NCBI GenBank assembly: GCA_944325065.1
Contig: CALUYS010000013.1
Coordinates: forward strand, 1 to 52,106
DNA from: Candidatus Gastranaerophilales bacterium
Lineage (GTDB): Bacteria; Cyanobacteriota; Vampirovibrionia; Gastranaerophilales; Gastranaerophilaceae
Direction: 5' to 3'
Length of the DNA: 52,106 bases
The position numbers and the translations under genes were made by a program. Under the pieces are notes generated by a model, which was given only the letters and a program-made list of their open reading frames with translations, was not told the DNA's origin and did not search any database. Each line of letters opens with the position of its first letter. Positions within the stretch are counted from its first letter, which is position 1. Positions 26,496 through 51,784 of this stretch are shown one piece after another.

Positions 26496-26837
26496 ATGGC
26501 ATTAGGTTTCAATACAGCATCAAATTTACGACATTCAAATACTCAAGGGGCAAATTCAAATAATACAGAGACATCAGGTTCATTAGCTTCCAACAATAAT
26601 GCAGAAACATCTGGTTCTTTAGCTTCATTATTTGCACAACCTTCAGTTTCAAATTCATCTGTAGGAGTTTATACATCTTCAACATCCTCAAGTGCTTCAT
26701 CAAGCGGAGAATCAAGTGGTGGAGGTTCATCTTCATCATCTTCTAGTGATTCATCAGGAGGAGGTGGAGGTTCGTCTTCATCAGGTAGTGGCGGTGGTTG
26801 CTCATCAGGTGGCGGTGGTTTTAGTGCTTGTGTATAA
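26496..26837 (+). CDS. Small Ser/Gly-rich low-complexity protein
   Basis: 113 aa with no recognised domain and no signal peptide. The first half carries an imperfect repeat (NNTETSGSLAS then NNAETSGSLAS). The second half is almost only Ser and Gly, ending in GGGCSSGGGGFSACV with two cysteines. AAAGGGAG seven to eight bases before the ATG is a strong ribosome binding site, so it is probably expressed. A (TA)9 tract sits in the promoter region. Such composition fits a surface, adhesive or matrix-like protein, or the C-rich tail could be modified, but there is no maturation gene nearby. Function unknown. Confidence 0.6.
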   Translation: MALGFNTASNLRHSNTQGANSNNTETSGSLASNNNAETSGSLASLFAQPSVSNSSVGVYTSSTSSSASSSGESSGGGSSSSSSSDSSGGGGGSSSSGSGGGCSSGGGGFSACV

Positions 26838-34595: not shown

Positions 34596-34928
34596 ATGTC
34601 TTTAAAAGCAAATTTAGGTAAACGAATAAAAGAATTACGTGAAGCAAACTTTTTGACTCAGGAAGCTTTAGCCGATAAAATTAATATTCATCGAAATACA
34701 TTATCAAGAATTGAAAACGGTGAAAGTTTTCCATCTGAAGCAACACTTGAAAAATTGATAAATATTCTTGGAGTTGAAGCATATGAGTTATTTAATTTTA
34801 ACAGCGAAGTTGTTCAAGACCCTTTAAAAATTTTAAAATTGAGGCTTAATGAACTAAGCGAAAAAGATTCAAAATATTTTATAAAATGTATTGAATTGTT
34901 TATAGAACACAGGAAGAATATTAGTTAA
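34596..34928 (+). CDS. XRE-family transcriptional regulator
   Basis: 110-aa Cro/C1-type helix-turn-helix protein: LGKRIKELREANFLTQEALA, DKINIHRNTLSRIENGESFP, then TLEKLINILGVEAYELFNF, and a short helical tail for dimerisation (LKLRLNELSEKDSKYFIKCI). No effector domain. It probably represses its own promoter through the palindrome at 34542-34556. A truncated second copy of the same gene type follows 9 nt later. Confidence 0.85.
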   Translation: MSLKANLGKRIKELREANFLTQEALADKINIHRNTLSRIENGESFPSEATLEKLINILGVEAYELFNFNSEVVQDPLKILKLRLNELSEKDSKYFIKCIELFIEHRKNIS

Positions 34929-35310: not shown

Positions 35311-35339
35311 TTGAAAAAAAGTAAAAATAATTATATAAT
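35311..35339 (+). promoter_or_regulatory. Antisense promoter of peptide unit 1
   Basis: TTGAAA (35311-35316), 17-nt spacer, perfect TATAAT (35334-35339). Start is predicted at the first or second G of GGTAGGG (35345/35346), i.e. on the strand opposite the peptide gene, at its 3' end. The RNA would begin with the hairpin at 35353-35380. Confidence 0.6.
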
Positions 35340-35344
35340 AAAAA

Positions 35345-35593
35345 GGTAGGGCGTTAAATTCGGTTGAGACCCGATTTAACTTTTAGTTTCTACAAGTTGT
35401 TAATTTTTAAGGGCTATAATAATTATTAAGATTAGAAATAGCTCTTTTTTATTTTTTCGTGTTAAACTAAAAAGCACGATTAAAAACAAAAATTCATTAA
35501 CCATACGCATCAACCTCCTTTCTTCATTTTTTATTTAACAAATAAGATGTAAGAAGAGGAGTTTTTTACGCACTGTAGAAACTAAACCCTACC
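35345..35593 (-). repeat. Peptide unit 1: type I toxin-like mRNA
   Basis: A 249-nt unit transcribed on the minus strand. The 5' end GGTAGGG...AGTTTCTACA pairs with the 3' end (TGTAGAAACTA, then CCCTACC after a branching hairpin with loop near 35364-35370), followed by U5, so ends-pairing and terminator coincide. In the leader an anti-Shine-Dalgarno ACTCCTCTTCTT (35562-35551) faces AAAGGAGGT (35521-35513). The first 98 nt of the transcript are identical to unit 2 (35864-35961). Folding and ends are read by eye. Confidence 0.7.
35400..35504 (-). CDS. Hydrophobic 34-aa peptide (type I toxin-like)
   Basis: The peptide MVNEFLFLIVLFSL ... LFLILIIIIALKN is 34 aa: two hydrophobic stretches around a basic TRKNKK turn. 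AAAGGAGGT precedes it. Two in-frame ATGs exist (35510 and 35504); the second has the better spacing. Size, hydrophobicity, sequestered ribosome binding site, paired mRNA ends and an opposing promoter are the hallmarks of type I toxins such as AapA, Fst or TisB. No sequence family is recognised. Toxicity is inference. Unit 2 encodes a diverged relative with MVN, a central KN and a C-terminal ALK in common. Confidence 0.6.
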   Translation of the reverse strand: MVNEFLFLIVLFSLTRKNKKELFLILIIIIALKN

Positions 35594-35598
35594 TTTTA

Positions 35599-35604
35599 AT
35601 TATA
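35599..35604 (-). promoter_or_regulatory. Peptide mRNA 1 -10 box
   Basis: Perfect TATAAT on the minus strand, five to six bases before GGTAGGG, where the paired 5' end of the mRNA begins. No good -35 hexamer is seen, so the sense promoter looks weaker than the antisense promoter of the same unit. Confidence 0.5.
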
Positions 35605-35681
35605 TTTATTTTTAAATGTACAAAGTTATCTTCCTTAGTTATAATAAAAATATGTATAAATGTAAAGTTTATTAACATATA

Positions 35682-35709
35682 TTGAAAAATATAAGAAAAA
35701 TGTTATAAT
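35682..35709 (+). promoter_or_regulatory. Antisense promoter of peptide unit 2
   Basis: TTGAAA (35682-35687), 16-nt spacer, extended -10 TGTTATAAT (-10 hexamer 35704-35709), then six bases to G35716 as +1. It drives RNA opposite to the peptide mRNA of unit 2. Confidence 0.65.
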
Positions 35710-35715
35710 AAAAAA

Positions 35716-35961
35716 GTAGGGTGTTAAATTCGGTTGAGACCCGATTTAACTTTTAGTTTCTACAATTGGTTTATTTTAGAGCTTTAATTATCAAATAGAT
35801 AATTAAAAGCTCGATACTATTTTTCTTTGCTAAAAATATTAACAAGATAAAAAATAATATTTTATTAACCATACGCATCAACCTCCTTTCTTCATTTTTT
35901 ATTTAACAAATAAGATGTAAGAAGAGGAGTTTTTTACGCACTGTAGAAACTAAACCCTACC
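35716..35961 (-). repeat. Peptide unit 2: type I toxin-like mRNA
   Basis: 246-nt second copy, 122 bp from unit 1 in the same direction. The leader is identical to unit 1 over 98 nt, including the anti-SD (35930-35919) and SD (35889-35881). The 3' hairpin region (35716-35765) differs at one base in 50. Only the peptide-coding middle has diverged, indicating selection on the RNA structure or recent conversion of the flanks. A run of six T on the minus strand ends the unit. Confidence 0.7.
35771..35872 (-). CDS. Hydrophobic 33-aa peptide (type I toxin-like), second copy
   Basis: The peptide MVNKILFFILLIFLAKKN ... LLIIYLIIKALK is 33 aa, hydrophobic with a KKN turn in the middle and a basic C-terminus. 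Start ATG 35872 (alternative 35878) follows AAAGGAGGT. Composition and layout match the unit 1 peptide although the DNA has diverged, which argues that both are translated. Likely membrane-acting; whether it is toxic, and whether the opposing RNA silences it, is untested inference. Confidence 0.6.
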   Translation of the reverse strand: MVNKILFFILLIFLAKKNSIELLIIYLIIKALK

Positions 35962-35967
35962 TTTTTT

Positions 35968-35973
35968 ATTATA
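35968..35973 (-). promoter_or_regulatory. Peptide mRNA 2 -10 box
   Basis: Perfect TATAAT on the minus strand followed by exactly six bases and then GGTAGGG, which makes the first base of the end-pairing stem the predicted +1 (35961). The -35 region is weak. Confidence 0.55.
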
Positions 35974-42501: not shown

Positions 42502-45500
42502 ATGCTAAATGAAGCAACAAAAATTATAAATAATGCTTTTAATAATAGCTTTATTAAACGTTTGAGTTTATATTTACATGATTGTGTTCGAGAAGAGGTT
42601 AAAAGTTCAACATTTCGTAATCTTAATCAGGATAAAGACAATAAGTGTGTATTTTTAAATCAAAAAGCCAATGAAGAAGTTTTTTTTAAAAATTATCCAA
42701 ATAATTTAGTTTTAAATGGATTGGATAGTCAAATAACTGAGCTTATGATTCAATCTGAAATGAATCAAAAAGATAAACATTTAATTTACGGATTTTTATT
42801 TTTAGAAGGGAAAAATTTAAAGTCGAAAAAAAATAATGAGTTTTTAACACCTTTGCTTTACACAAGTGTTAAACTTGAAAGAAACGAAAAAAATATTATT
42901 TGTTCATTTGTTGATGAAACAATTTCATTAAACACAGGTGCCTTAGCAGTTTTGCTTTCTAAAAACGATACAAATGATGAAGATGAAACAAATGAGCAAA
43001 TGCTTTTTGGTTTGCTCGATGTGGTTCCACAACTTCCTTTGACAAAAGATTCTTTAGATATATTTTTAACTACTTTGAAATCTCTTCTACCAGAAATTGA
43101 ATATGAAAAGGAATTGTTAGATGAAATTATTACAAATGATTGTTTTATCAAAAATGAAAAAAAAGAAATAATTATTCAAGATGATTATGAAAATGAAGAT
43201 GAAAAAAATATTTTAAGTGATGAAATTATTGATAATGATGAAAATATTGAAGTAAAATCTAAAACAATAAAGCTGAAAAAAATATGTTTAACTTCAAAAA
43301 ATGCATTGATTTTAACAAAACGTCCAGCAATTACAGCAGGCGTTTTACATGAATTAACACAAATAGCAGAAAAACCACAAGGAGTTTTACGAGAAACTGC
43401 TTTAAATTGCATAAATGAGGAATATGAAGAGTCAAAATCAAATAAAAAAGTAACAAATCCAAATCTTGAAAATGAAACAAAAGAGGAATTTTTTCCTATT
43501 GTTCCACTTCCAATTAGCGATGCTCAGGAAAAGGTTATTGAAGCGATTGAAAATAATACAATAGTCTCAGTATTTGGACCACCTGGAAGTGGTAAATCTC
43601 AAACAATTGTAAATCTTATTTCTCATTTGGTTGCAAATGGGAAAACTGTTTTAATCTCATCAAGGATGGATAAAGCTGTTGATGTTATTTGTCAAAGACT
43701 TAATGAACTTGAAGCTCCTTTTTTAGCCTTAAGAGCTGGAAAACTTAATTATCAGAAAAAATTAAGTCAAGATTTAGAAAACCTAATCTCTAACAAAATT
43801 GATCTTGATTTCAATTGTGAAGATTATATCCTAACTCAAAATGAAGATATGAAAAAACTTCTTGATTTGATATCCGAACTTGAAAATAAATGTGAAAATA
43901 TAATCAAACTTGAACATGATTGGTGTCGTGTTTATTGTGAATTTAATGAGTTAAATAGTATTGTTCAAAATAATTACAATATTATAAAACTTAATTTAAC
44001 TTCAAATGACATTGCTTCTGTTGAAAAATTAATTAATGAAATTGAAATTTTATTTAATGCAAGAAATATTTTTATATCATTACTTTTGAAATTGAAATTC
44101 AGTAAACTTAAAAAACTTTTAAGATTAAAAAAAATTGATTATAGTTTAGTTGAATTGGCAAAAATAAAAGAAGAACTATCTTTATCCAAACTTAATGCAA
44201 GACTAAAAGATATAGAAAATAAAATTTATAAATTAGGAAATTTGCATTTATTTTTAAATGAGATAAAAAATAATCGAGAAAAAATAAGCGTTTTAGCGAA
44301 AAATATAATAAAAAATAAAAGACGTAATTCTTTAAAAAATTTATTAGGAGATAATAATAAGGTAAGACGTATAAAAATTCATTCAAAAGCTATAATACAA
44401 AGAAAAAAGAATTTGCAAACAAAGTTATTAGAAGAAGAAGATTTTAAACCATTGCTTGAAGCTTTTCCTTGTTGGGGAATTACAACATATCAGGTTTCAA
44501 ATTCATTACCTTTAAGACCTGGTTTGTTTGATGTTGTAATAATTGATGAAGCATCGCAATGTGATATTGCAAGTTGCATGCCACTTTTATATCGTGCTAA
44601 AAAAGCTGTTATTGTTGGTGATGATAAACAACTTCCTCATTTATCATTTTTAGAAAAAACAAAAGAACAATCATATTTTGCAAAATATGAAATCCCTGAT
44701 AAGTATCAGCTTATGTGGCAATTTAGAACCAATTCAATGTTCGATTTGGCAAATTATTATTCAAATATACAGGTGTTACTTGATGAACATTTTCGAAGCT
44801 TGCCACCAATTATTAATTTTTCAAATAAAGAATTTTATAATGATAATATAAAAGTTATGAAAGAAAATGACCCAAATAATATGTCACTTGAACTAAATGT
44901 AGTTGAAAATGGAAAAATCGATTATGGCGTCACGAGAAATGAAATAGAAATTGAGGCTATAATTAAACGATTATATCAAATTATTTTAAGCGAAGAAAAG
45001 AATGAAAAACCTTTATCAATAGGTATAATTTCACCATTTCGAGCACAAGTTGATGCAATTAAAAAAGCATTATTGATGGTTTTGACAAATGATGTAATCG
45101 AAAGACACAAAATTGAAGTCGGAACAGCTCACACATTTCAAGGTGATGAACGCGATATTATTATAATATCTTGGACGTTAGCACAAAATAGTTATTTTCA
45201 AAGTTTAACTTTTCTTCAAAAACCCAATCTCTTTAATGTTGCTATAACACGTGCTAAAAAAAAGGTTATTTCATTTATATCAACAAATCCTAAAACTTTA
45301 AGTAATGGACTTTTAAAAGACTATTTAGAATATATTCAAAATTATATCAATAAAAACAAATCTGAAATTTTAAAAGTAACAAATAATAATTATAAAAATG
45401 AATTTGAGAAAGAAATTGCAAGTACATTAAAAGAAGCTGGTTATGAAGTTATTGAAAATGTAAAACTTGCAAATTTTAATTGTGATTTAAAAATTATTGA

Positions 45501-45690
45501 TAAAAATAAAGATAAAAAAGTAATTGTGGAAGTTGATGGTGTTGAAGACAATAAAAAAACATATATTACAAATATGAAAAAACAGGCTATAATTGAAAGA
45601 TGTGGTTTTCAAGTTGTAAGAATAACTTATCGTGAATGGTTATTAAGTCAAAAAATATGTATTGAACGTGTTGCTAAAGCTTTTATATAA
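42502..45690 (+). CDS. SF1 helicase (AAA_11/AAA_12) fused to Vsr/DUF559-like nuclease
   Basis: 1062 aa. After a 340-residue N-terminal region with no recognised domain comes a DNA2/UPF1-like SF1 helicase: Walker A FGPPGSGKSQ (about 359), Walker B VIIDEASQCD (D682), VGDDKQLPHL, LDEHFRSLPPIINFSN, GTAHTFQGDERD and NVAITRAKK. Between motifs I and II is a coiled-coil insertion. The last 110 residues form a PD-(D/E)xK domain like DUF559/Vsr: NCDLKI (D995), VEVDG (E1010, D1012), then VVRITYREWL. Such fusions occur in DNA repair and in anti-phage loci; here no other defence gene is adjacent. GAGAG precedes the ATG. Confidence 0.85.
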   Translation: MLNEATKIINNAFNNSFIKRLSLYLHDCVREEVKSSTFRNLNQDKDNKCVFLNQKANEEVFFKNYPNNLVLNGLDSQITELMIQSEMNQKDKHLIYGFLFLEGKNLKSKKNNEFLTPLLYTSVKLERNEKNIICSFVDETISLNTGALAVLLSKNDTNDEDETNEQMLFGLLDVVPQLPLTKDSLDIFLTTLKSLLPEIEYEKELLDEIITNDCFIKNEKKEIIIQDDYENEDEKNILSDEIIDNDENIEVKSKTIKLKKICLTSKNALILTKRPAITAGVLHELTQIAEKPQGVLRETALNCINEEYEESKSNKKVTNPNLENETKEEFFPIVPLPISDAQEKVIEAIENNTIVSVFGPPGSGKSQTIVNLISHLVANGKTVLISSRMDKAVDVICQRLNELEAPFLALRAGKLNYQKKLSQDLENLISNKIDLDFNCEDYILTQNEDMKKLLDLISELENKCENIIKLEHDWCRVYCEFNELNSIVQNNYNIIKLNLTSNDIASVEKLINEIEILFNARNIFISLLLKLKFSKLKKLLRLKKIDYSLVELAKIKEELSLSKLNARLKDIENKIYKLGNLHLFLNEIKNNREKISVLAKNIIKNKRRNSLKNLLGDNNKVRRIKIHSKAIIQRKKNLQTKLLEEEDFKPLLEAFPCWGITTYQVSNSLPLRPGLFDVVIIDEASQCDIASCMPLLYRAKKAVIVGDDKQLPHLSFLEKTKEQSYFAKYEIPDKYQLMWQFRTNSMFDLANYYSNIQVLLDEHFRSLPPIINFSNKEFYNDNIKVMKENDPNNMSLELNVVENGKIDYGVTRNEIEIEAIIKRLYQIILSEEKNEKPLSIGIISPFRAQVDAIKKALLMVLTNDVIERHKIEVGTAHTFQGDERDIIIISWTLAQNSYFQSLTFLQKPNLFNVAITRAKKKVISFISTNPKTLSNGLLKDYLEYIQNYINKNKSEILKVTNNNYKNEFEKEIASTLKEAGYEVIENVKLANFNCDLKIIDKNKDKKVIVEVDGVEDNKKTYITNMKKQAIIERCGFQVVRITYREWLLSQKICIERVAKAFI

Positions 45691-49972: not shown

Positions 49973-50735
49973 ACCTAATAGAGCTAACATTTTTTTTATT
50001 AAATAAGTCAGTTGGATCTAGCTTAAATTGCAACATATTTGCAGTATTTCTACCATTGTCGCCACCTTTACGTTGTATAGTAACTTTACCAACATATAAA
50101 GAGCCTTTTGGACTAATAATAGCATCACCTTCTGAATAATGTTGTAAAGCTTTATTTATATTAATAAGCACCCAACGTGCGTTATTATCTATCTTTTGAG
50201 CAACTAAAATCCATTCAGCACTAAATTGCCCACGTCCTTTTATTATATCACTTAAAACAAGCATTTTGTTTTTGTTAAACCAATTTAATATTAACCTTTG
50301 TTCTGACTCTTTAAATTCTTTAATAAACATTCGTCTTGGGTCTTTAGGATTTTCTATATATGGTTTAAGTTCACCTGTATAATATTGTAGCAGTTTGAAA
50401 ACGTCATTAGGAATGTTCCACATTTCTTTATAGTGCAATAACCAACGTTTATCCACCTGATTAAACCCTTTTTTATTGGATACCAGTTTTACCTGTATAT
50501 TTTCTTTATCAATAGCTGACTTTAATTTTATTTGTATCTGTACATTTATATCAGCTTTGTATCCATGCAATGTAACTGCTTTTACAAATTCAATATCTTC
50601 TAAATTGTAGTTCATAATGATAAACCACTTTTGAGCATCTGTATCTTTAAACTAATTATTAAATTTTTCACATATTTCTTGCTCGTTTCTAAAACCATTT
50701 TTAGCAGTTTGAGAGCCTTTTTGTATCAGTTTCAT
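49965..50735 (-). pseudogene. HinP1I-like type II restriction endonuclease with amber codon 28
   Basis: From ATG 50735 the frame reads MKLIQKGSQTAKNGFRNEQE and continues for 27 codons to TAG (50654-50652). It then stays open as FKDTDAQKWF... to the end, 257 codons in all. As I recall R.HinP1I, it aligns along its length (GSKTAKDGFKNEK, QVKLVSNKRGFNQ, TIQRKGGDNGR, NMLQFKIDP), with Trp28 at the TAG, so TGG to TAG is the simplest change. The catalytic AD-x18-QVK pattern is intact. Met41 (ATG 50615) could start a 216-aa product without a Shine-Dalgarno. HinP1I cuts GCGC. The start overlaps the methyltransferase end by 35 bp. Probably inactive unless the stop is read through. Confidence 0.85.
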
Positions 50736-51696
50736 TTTCAAGATTATCTACCCCTATATATTTCAACAAACATTTACCTATTTCACGGATTACATTTACT
50801 GTCATGGCGTTACCAGCTTGTGATAATAATTTATTATTATTTAATTCTTTAGCTTTTAAAACATATTCTTTACTAAAACCTTGTAGCATTAAGGCTTCAA
50901 CTCCCTGTAATTTATACAATTCTCCACCTTTTGTATACAAAAGTCCATGTCGACCTGTCCTTAAGGTTGGACATTTATTTTCGTAAACTCTTAAATCAGA
51001 CTGCCTTGTATCTATGATACAAAAATCTTTTTTCAAAATATCGTTTATATCGACTTTACCTTTGTTATATTTATTATTCAAATATTTTTGAAACGTTGGG
51101 TGCTTAATATCTTGTTTTATATTGTTAGAGTCTAACAAAAATTTTTTTAGACCGATTGGTTTTTGAGTAATAGGAAATTTGAACTCTTTAAAGCACAAAT
51201 CTTTTCTTATACCAACAAAGTAAATACGTTCTCTTAATTGTGGGACGCCATAATCCACACTATTTAAAACTTTATAAAATACTTTATATCCAACATTATT
51301 TAACAGTTCAACAATACTATTTAATGTTTTGCCCCCGCTATGATTTACAAGACCTTTTACATTTTCAAATATAAAATATGGTATTTTTTTTTCTTTTAAA
51401 ATCTTGGACAAGTAATAAATAATTTGACCTCTGTCATCATCAAAACCTGCTCTTTTACCGACAATAGAAAATGTTTGACAAGGGAAACCTGCTATTAAGA
51501 TATCGGCTATTGGTATTTTATCATAAGCTAAAGTTGTTAAATCACCTAAATTATTTTCATCTGAATAAAACAACTTATATGTAAAATCAGAATCCATATT
51601 TATTTCACTATGTGCCAAACATTTTAAGCCTAAAGATTCTAGCCCTAATCTTCCCCCACCAATTCCAGAACAAAAATCTATAAAAGTTAATGTCAT
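50701..51696 (-). CDS. DNA cytosine-5 methyltransferase (restriction-modification)
   Basis: 331-aa m5C methyltransferase with the motifs in order: FCSGIGGGRLGLE (I), the PCQ nucleophile loop GFPCQTFS with C73 (IV), FENVKG (VI), GVPQLRERIYFVG (VIII), a target region with RQSDLRVY and CPTLRTGRHG, and AGNAMTVNVI (X). It would protect host DNA against the HinP1I-like enzyme encoded next to it, so GCGC is the likely target; this is inferred from the partner. AGGGG 11 bases upstream favours ATG 51696 over GTG 51708. With the endonuclease broken it may persist as an orphan methylase. Confidence 0.92.
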   Translation of the reverse strand: MTLTFIDFCSGIGGGRLGLESLGLKCLAHSEINMDSDFTYKLFYSDENNLGDLTTLAYDKIPIADILIAGFPCQTFSIVGKRAGFDDDRGQIIYYLSKILKEKKIPYFIFENVKGLVNHSGGKTLNSIVELLNNVGYKVFYKVLNSVDYGVPQLRERIYFVGIRKDLCFKEFKFPITQKPIGLKKFLLDSNNIKQDIKHPTFQKYLNNKYNKGKVDINDILKKDFCIIDTRQSDLRVYENKCPTLRTGRHGLLYTKGGELYKLQGVEALMLQGFSKEYVLKAKELNNNKLLSQAGNAMTVNVIREIGKCLLKYIGVDNLENETDTKRLSNC

Positions 51697-51784
51697 GTTT
51701 TTAAACACCCCTACTATATTAGTTTAACATCAATAAACTTCATTATTGAAATTTCTGGATAAAATATATTTTGCTATGTTTTGT

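Follow-up and report, generated by a model that had tools for sequence, protein, structure and literature searches.

Two tandem units in a Candidatus Gastranaerophilales genome are probably members of a new family of type I toxin-antitoxin-like systems specific to their lineage

The window, i.e. the whole stretch of DNA analysed here, comprises 52,106 nucleotides of contig CALUYS010000013.1 from a Candidatus Gastranaerophilales bacterium. A gap upstream of a TrmL-like gene harbours two units on the minus strand, at the positions reported by the first-pass annotation. The predicted toxin mRNA of unit 1 (35345–35593) has its 5' end at 35593 and its 3' end at about 35345; a sense -10 box (TATAAT, 35599–35604) lies five bases ahead of the 5' GG. 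The 5' arm of the end pairing (GGTAGGGTTTAGTTTCTACAG, 35573–35593) is followed by the leader segment ACTCCTCTTCTTACATC (35546–35562), which pairs in the fold with the Shine-Dalgarno (SD) sequence AAAGGAGG (35514–35521), and by the peptide ORF (35400–35504, stop codon included). Counted from the second, well-spaced ATG, the peptide has 34 residues, MVNEFLFLIVLFSLTRKNKKELFLILIIIIALKN, and contains a core, KELxLILxIIxALK, that is kept across genera; a possible earlier ATG is located at 35510. The 3' arm (35345–35395) consists of TTGTAGAAACTAAA, a hairpin (35353–35380), and GCCCTACC, and relatives possess the same topology. For unit 2, the predicted toxin mRNA extends over 35716–35961 with its 5' end at 35961, and the sense -10 box TATAAT is found at 35968–35973. 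Here, the same SD sequence (35882–35889) pairs with leader positions 35914–35930, and the ORF (35771–35872, stop codon included) encodes 33 residues, MVNKILFFILLIFLAKKNSIELLIIYLIIKALK, again counted from the second, well-spaced ATG; a possible earlier one is at 35878. The mRNAs starting at 35593 and 35961 are identical in their first 98 bases, through ATGCGTATGGTTAAT, and nearly identical at their 3' ends, and their hydrophobic peptides differ; all of this had been noted in the first pass. An XRE-type helix-turn-helix protein is encoded close to the units (34596–34928). Farther away, the window contains a 113-aa reading frame of low complexity, rich in Ser and Gly (26496–26837), and, as judged by eye from the sequence, genes for a large helicase-like protein (42502–45690) and a C5 DNA methyltransferase-like protein (50701–51708).

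Among 11 promoter-like sites in the region, the two plus-strand TTGAAA promoters rank best. The first of them (TTGAAA-N17-TATAAT, 35311–35339, 11 of 12 matches) would give rise to a predicted antitoxin RNA 1 (35345–35457), which is deduced from this promoter and a terminator-like hairpin and whose first bases, GGTAGGG, are those of the mRNA. The hairpin (35410–35457; stem 35410–35417/35438–35445; T-run 35445–35457) lies inside the toxin ORF and covaries in relatives. From the second promoter (TTGAAA-N16-TATAAT, 35682–35709), a predicted antitoxin RNA 2 (35715–35824) would be transcribed, which contains a hairpin at 35779–35812 and then a weaker T-run at 35820–35824. The two predicted antitoxins have most of their first ~50 nt in common. 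The hairpin inside the ORF, designated hairpin 2, had been overlooked in the first pass. On the opposite strand it reads AAGCGCTA...TAGCGCTTTTTC and is terminator-like, with the Glu-Lys codons supplying the T-run; it looks like the terminator of the candidate antitoxin RNA. A terminator scanner detected no terminator, because its loop limit is 8. Due to the position of the hairpin within the ORF, the predicted antitoxin has a length of approximately 110 nt and comprises the 3' UTR plus the 3' part of the ORF.

Relatives of the two units were found in large number. A peptide-independent search of all loci, which combined the antisense promoter with an SD-led ORF, yielded 134 units, nearly all of them with short hydrophobic ORFs and all from the bacterial family of the window. 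Photosystem II occurs in other members of the phylum and in no listed genome from this family; the host is therefore a non-photosynthetic cyanobacterium. A typical genome contains one to eight units, often in tandem; it has to be noted that the relatives' genomes are drafts, probably mostly metagenome-assembled. A peptide profile search found short frames across the family with a tandem spacing of often 300–370 bp, and an improved profile matched 109 of 383 genomes at the level of the order, which belong to 21 of 52 genera (E<=0.001). In the class- and phylum-level samples, every one of the matches listed lies in the window's own family, and a scan of GTDB contigs added only three loci, apparently from genomes of this family that had already been counted. 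In a typical unit, a structured mRNA with paired ends occurs together with a strong SD sequence, a hydrophobic peptide of about 20–35 residues, and a near-perfect antisense promoter (TTGAAA/TTGACA-N16/17-TATAAT) that fires back from the mRNA 3' end. In a typical relative, AAGGGYAAGCCCTT, the leader, and AAAGGAGGTGAT are followed by the 23-aa peptide MxFSITEKALxLILLIIxALK, by GGGGCTTTTAAAG[hairpin]CGCCCTT, and by the reversed promoter ATTATA-N16/17-TTTCAA. The first-pass annotation had regarded the RNA rather than the peptide as conserved. The first half of this statement holds; the contrast fails, because the peptide core KxLxLILxIIxALK is kept over about 20 genera. The absence of a described family was corroborated: neither the covariance models of Rfam nor Pfam, NCBIfam, PHROGs, or PADLOC contained a match, and in NCBIfam only TatA models appeared, far under the cut-off.

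Intact and decayed copies exist side by side. Most copies possess an intact peptide frame and a strong SD sequence. In the host genome itself, a third copy (contig C29, 12129–12347) has lost its peptide frame by a single-base deletion while its RNA framework is largely intact, and a partial copy (contig C10, 46454–46570) has kept leader and SD and lacks the 3' part. At the nucleotide level, the sister species possesses a tandem pair and a third copy; a copy of a shorter type is found at locus L163. Such a coexistence of intact and decayed copies is usual for toxin-antitoxin loci. When the family was searched at the nucleotide level, 19 weak matches outside the genus were obtained, of which only L008 and L009 were clear at first. 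The others were initially interpreted as A/T-rich chance similarities; L011 was then recovered as a unit by means of its peptide, and L010 and L018 adjoin related units that encode a different type of peptide. Scans of IMG/VR gave no viral copy. Multiple, often tandem copies in unrelated neighbourhoods could also be expected of a repeated non-autonomous mobile or structural DNA element in which the small ORF is incidental. We consider this very unlikely, since the peptide is conserved behind a strong SD sequence and in frames that are intact in most copies, no terminal-repeat or transposase signal was seen, and the base pairing respects the RNA strands and is in register with the promoters and the terminator-like element. 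The neighbourhoods also bear on the idea of a leader-peptide attenuator or a riboregulator of an adjacent gene. A short peptide with a strong SD and an adjoining structured RNA with T-runs would suit this role, but there is no conserved neighbour gene: the largest common flanking family occurs at 4 of 52 loci, which makes such a function very improbable. The tandem units of locus L035 are flanked by an XRE-type protein similar to that of the window, which is the only neighbour the two loci have in common.

About 109 of the 134 units encode a peptide of type A. Two further types have the sequences MKRxIIKSAIxVLIALLQIIxLFL (type B; matches in 12 of 117 genomes at E<=0.01) and MxxFNISLLLIFLILYILKNGSYLNR (type C), and a few units resemble chance ORFs. 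By inspection, end pairing and reversed promoter of types B and C are the same as those of type A. Mixed loci are L209 (B, C, possible D, C, C), L203 (B, C), L120 (A, B), L122 (A, C), and L132 (A, B). At least three unrelated peptides ride on one RNA framework and are mixed within arrays, which makes antitoxin cross-talk directly testable. A possible fourth type, MDLLIYLFLDYLIQKYKKKVPDLELLELFIKS and MILVLLLLCKQYKEKVPILEVLELFLFN, was seen at L202 and at L209 (2145, minus strand). At L209, L203, L201, L122, L120, and L132, up to five units per locus were observed, with types side by side. The diversity of peptides is also of relevance for the alternative that the units encode an antisense-regulated small membrane peptide without toxic function, such as a modulator that is induced by stress and acts on a membrane complex or on the membrane potential. 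A dedicated function of this kind would be in line with conservation over some 20 genera; however, the patchy presence in 109 of 383 genomes, the tandem multiplication, the decayed copies, and the fact that unrelated hydrophobic peptides replace one another on a common framework fit toxins better than a protein that binds a specific partner. We therefore judge this alternative to be unlikely.

The antisense promoter is located approximately 40–60 nt past the stop codon. Its 12 bases are exact in 47 of 58 units of the family and contain one mismatch in 10 more, so that 57 of 58 possess an exact or near-exact site; in a shuffled control, one to five mismatches were counted, mostly three to four, and chance is therefore not the explanation. 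A search with the 3' pattern only found 43 sites in 146 genomes, whereas the reversed control pattern found 2. Conservation of the sense promoter is weaker than that of the antisense promoter. On the antisense strand of the ORF, a terminator-like element (at least three G/C in the stem) is present in 57 of 58 units versus 26 of 58 codon-shuffled ones. The conservation of promoter and terminator-like element supports the plus-strand RNA as a candidate antitoxin, the role that had been proposed for it in the first pass.

Folding of the mRNAs argues for selection at the RNA level. The minimum free energies (MFE) are -69.4 kcal/mol for unit 1 (z = -7.0 versus dinucleotide shuffles) and -79.5 kcal/mol for unit 2 (z = -9.3), and none of 200 dinucleotide shuffles folded as well. 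In both MFE folds, the SD sequence is paired with the leader anti-SD, and the 5' arm GGTAGGG...TTTAGTTTCTACA is paired with the mRNA 3' end and encloses the 3' hairpin, as had been predicted. For the whole mRNAs of 53 sampled units, the mean z was -5.7 and the number of end-to-end pairs 11.6 versus 4.7 in shuffles. A structure of 36 pairs, comprising the end pairing, the 3' hairpin, and two ORF hairpins, was then evaluated for 45 units: the structure was 86.7% paired, and 95 cells had changed on both sides and were still paired, compared to 29.6 after shuffling and 10–35 after sliding by 1–3 columns, controls which ignore phylogeny. These compensatory base changes back the end pairing and two hairpins within the coding sequence. 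With the default MAFFT alignment A3, RNAalifold yielded only weak folding (-8 kcal/mol); the end pairing emerged with an L-INS-i alignment. The ORFs of type A were more stable than their synonymous recodings in 108 of 108 cases (mean z -3.5), and all of them were likewise more stable than versions in which their own codons had been permuted among identical residues (mean z -3.0). The RNA structure of the units is under selection, and codon choice serves this structure. Sequestration of the SD is modest family-wide (unpaired fraction 0.25 versus 0.32 for shuffled leaders) and stronger in the window (0.16). Trimming of the 3' end did not free the SD: its predicted pairing was unchanged by removal of the 3' end (0.25 unpaired). 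A switch operated by 3' trimming is therefore unsupported in silico.

The hairpins within the ORF couple amino acids. Hairpin 2 pairs the codon that follows Glu-Lys (X) with a codon near the C terminus (Y). The X-Y combinations are GCG-GCG (48), GCA-GTG (15), GAA-GTT (10), GCG-ACG (8), GCG-GCA (8), GAG-GCT (6), GAG-GCC (5), and a few others. Pairing between the third base of X and the second base of Y is seen in 104 of 107 units; the expected number is 66, and 10,000 shuffles reached at most 82. If Y encodes Val, X ends in A (25/25); in the remaining units, X ends in G (78/81). Val replaces Ala at Y solely where the partner codon has changed as well (25/25). Hairpin 1 couples residues 4 and 6 in the combinations Ser-Thr, Ala-Ser, and Thr-Ser. 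Since the toxin codons would form both the putative antitoxin terminator and an mRNA hairpin, base pairing would dictate which toxin amino acids are permitted. A change of Val/Ala or Glu/Ala that tracks its pairing partner makes this dual-coding hairpin an unusually clean natural test of the influence of RNA folding on a protein.

Taken together, we regard it as probable that the window contains a tandem pair of modules which belong to a new family of type I toxin-antitoxin-like systems confined to one lineage. For the more far-reaching concept of a clade-wide modular type I platform, in which one framework accepts unrelated toxins, toxin codons serve as terminator, and the antitoxin mimics the mRNA 5' end, the evidence tips the balance only slightly in favour. 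In each of the two modules, a stable mRNA locked by its end pairing and by a leader hairpin that sequesters the SD would encode a short hydrophobic peptide, whose probable action is to insert into the inner membrane and damage it. The strong promoter just beyond the mRNA 3' end would produce the antisense RNA of about 110 nt, which spans the 3' UTR together with the 3' portion of the ORF and would stop at the terminator-like hairpin. Because the two ends of the mRNA are complementary to each other, the first bases of the predicted antitoxin are nearly those of the mRNA (in unit 1 GGTAGGG...TTTAGTTTCTACA). Owing to this similarity it could compete for the mRNA 3' end with the near-identical mRNA 5' end, and binding would presumably lead to a duplex and to mRNA decay, a block of translation, or both. 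Transcription, toxicity, and antitoxin action of the family members are what we infer; in hydrophobicity, the peptides are similar to type I toxins that act on membranes. Several points count against a type I reading, namely the modest family-wide sequestration of the SD, its failure to be freed by trimming, the weaker sense promoter, and the weak T-run of unit 2.

Like the members of this class, the units encode a small hydrophobic peptide with its own SD. With aapA/IsoA of Helicobacter pylori they have in common the occurrence as multicopy chromosomal units, a toxin mRNA of about 250 nt, and a hydrophobic peptide of about 30 residues (PMC6733600). Long-distance pairing of the mRNA 5' and 3' ends, an upstream anti-SD hairpin, a strong antisense promoter, and structural roles of the ORF sequence are shared as well. 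IsoA is described as being encoded opposite the small ORF (PMC6733600). In aapA/IsoA the promoter is located inside the ORF, whereas the antisense RNA predicted here starts at the mRNA 3' end. Moreover, the peptides appear unrelated by eye, Pfam and NCBIfam gave no family for them, the Rfam models gave no match, removal of the 3' end makes no difference to the predicted pairing of the SD, and several peptides use one framework. With hok/Sok, the units share a fold-back mRNA with paired ends, a membrane peptide, and an antisense RNA, the latter two being predicted here. Sok overlaps with mok and the 5' part of its mRNA, and Hok consists of about 50 residues. In contrast, the predicted antisense RNA of the units is positioned at the 3' end, and Rfam again gave no match. 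The UUGA loop highlighted in the first pass occurs in the window, but a YUNR loop is present in only 12 of 58 units and is not a feature of the family. The type I toxin-antitoxin-like design proposed in the first pass is supported, and the analogy to hok and AapA is incomplete with respect to the start of the antisense RNA.

In the type I systems txpA/RatA and bsrG/SR4 of Bacillus, a convergent antitoxin overlaps the 3' end of the toxin mRNA, and the same arrangement is predicted here. The peptides are different, Rfam gave no match, the mRNA ends pair in our units, and the first sequence of the predicted antitoxin equals that of the mRNA. The Ibs peptides of E. coli (18–19 residues, almost wholly hydrophobic) resemble those of the units in being very short, hydrophobic, and encoded in multiple, often tandem copies; Sib, however, covers the whole ibs gene, and the libraries searched gave no sequence relation. 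Within the same phylum, msoT1/msoA1 of Microcystis aeruginosa encodes a 63-aa toxin with two predicted membrane helices and a cis antisense RNA that covers the 3' UTR and the adjoining end of the coding region; the named homologues of MsoT1 are from other cyanobacteria (PMC12390103). The antisense RNA predicted for our units has a similar position, whereas a two-helix toxin of 63 residues differs from peptides of about 20–36, and no framework for multiple toxins has been described for msoT1/msoA1. The paper, published in 2025, presents this single type I candidate as the first in Cyanobacteria (PMC12390103). It was also the only cyanobacterial one found in our literature search, which for the lineage of the window in combination with type I systems gave nothing relevant and mostly did not cover subscription journals. 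To our knowledge, type I toxin-antitoxins have been reported from very few phyla. If our interpretation is correct, non-photosynthetic Cyanobacteriota harbour a large type I family that can be recovered by its RNA architecture instead of its toxin, and such systems may go unnoticed in other phyla, since known peptides are the starting point of searches. Among the known systems, the units appear to work most like aapA/IsoA with respect to the folding of the mRNA, and most like the 3'-overlapping antitoxins with respect to geometry.
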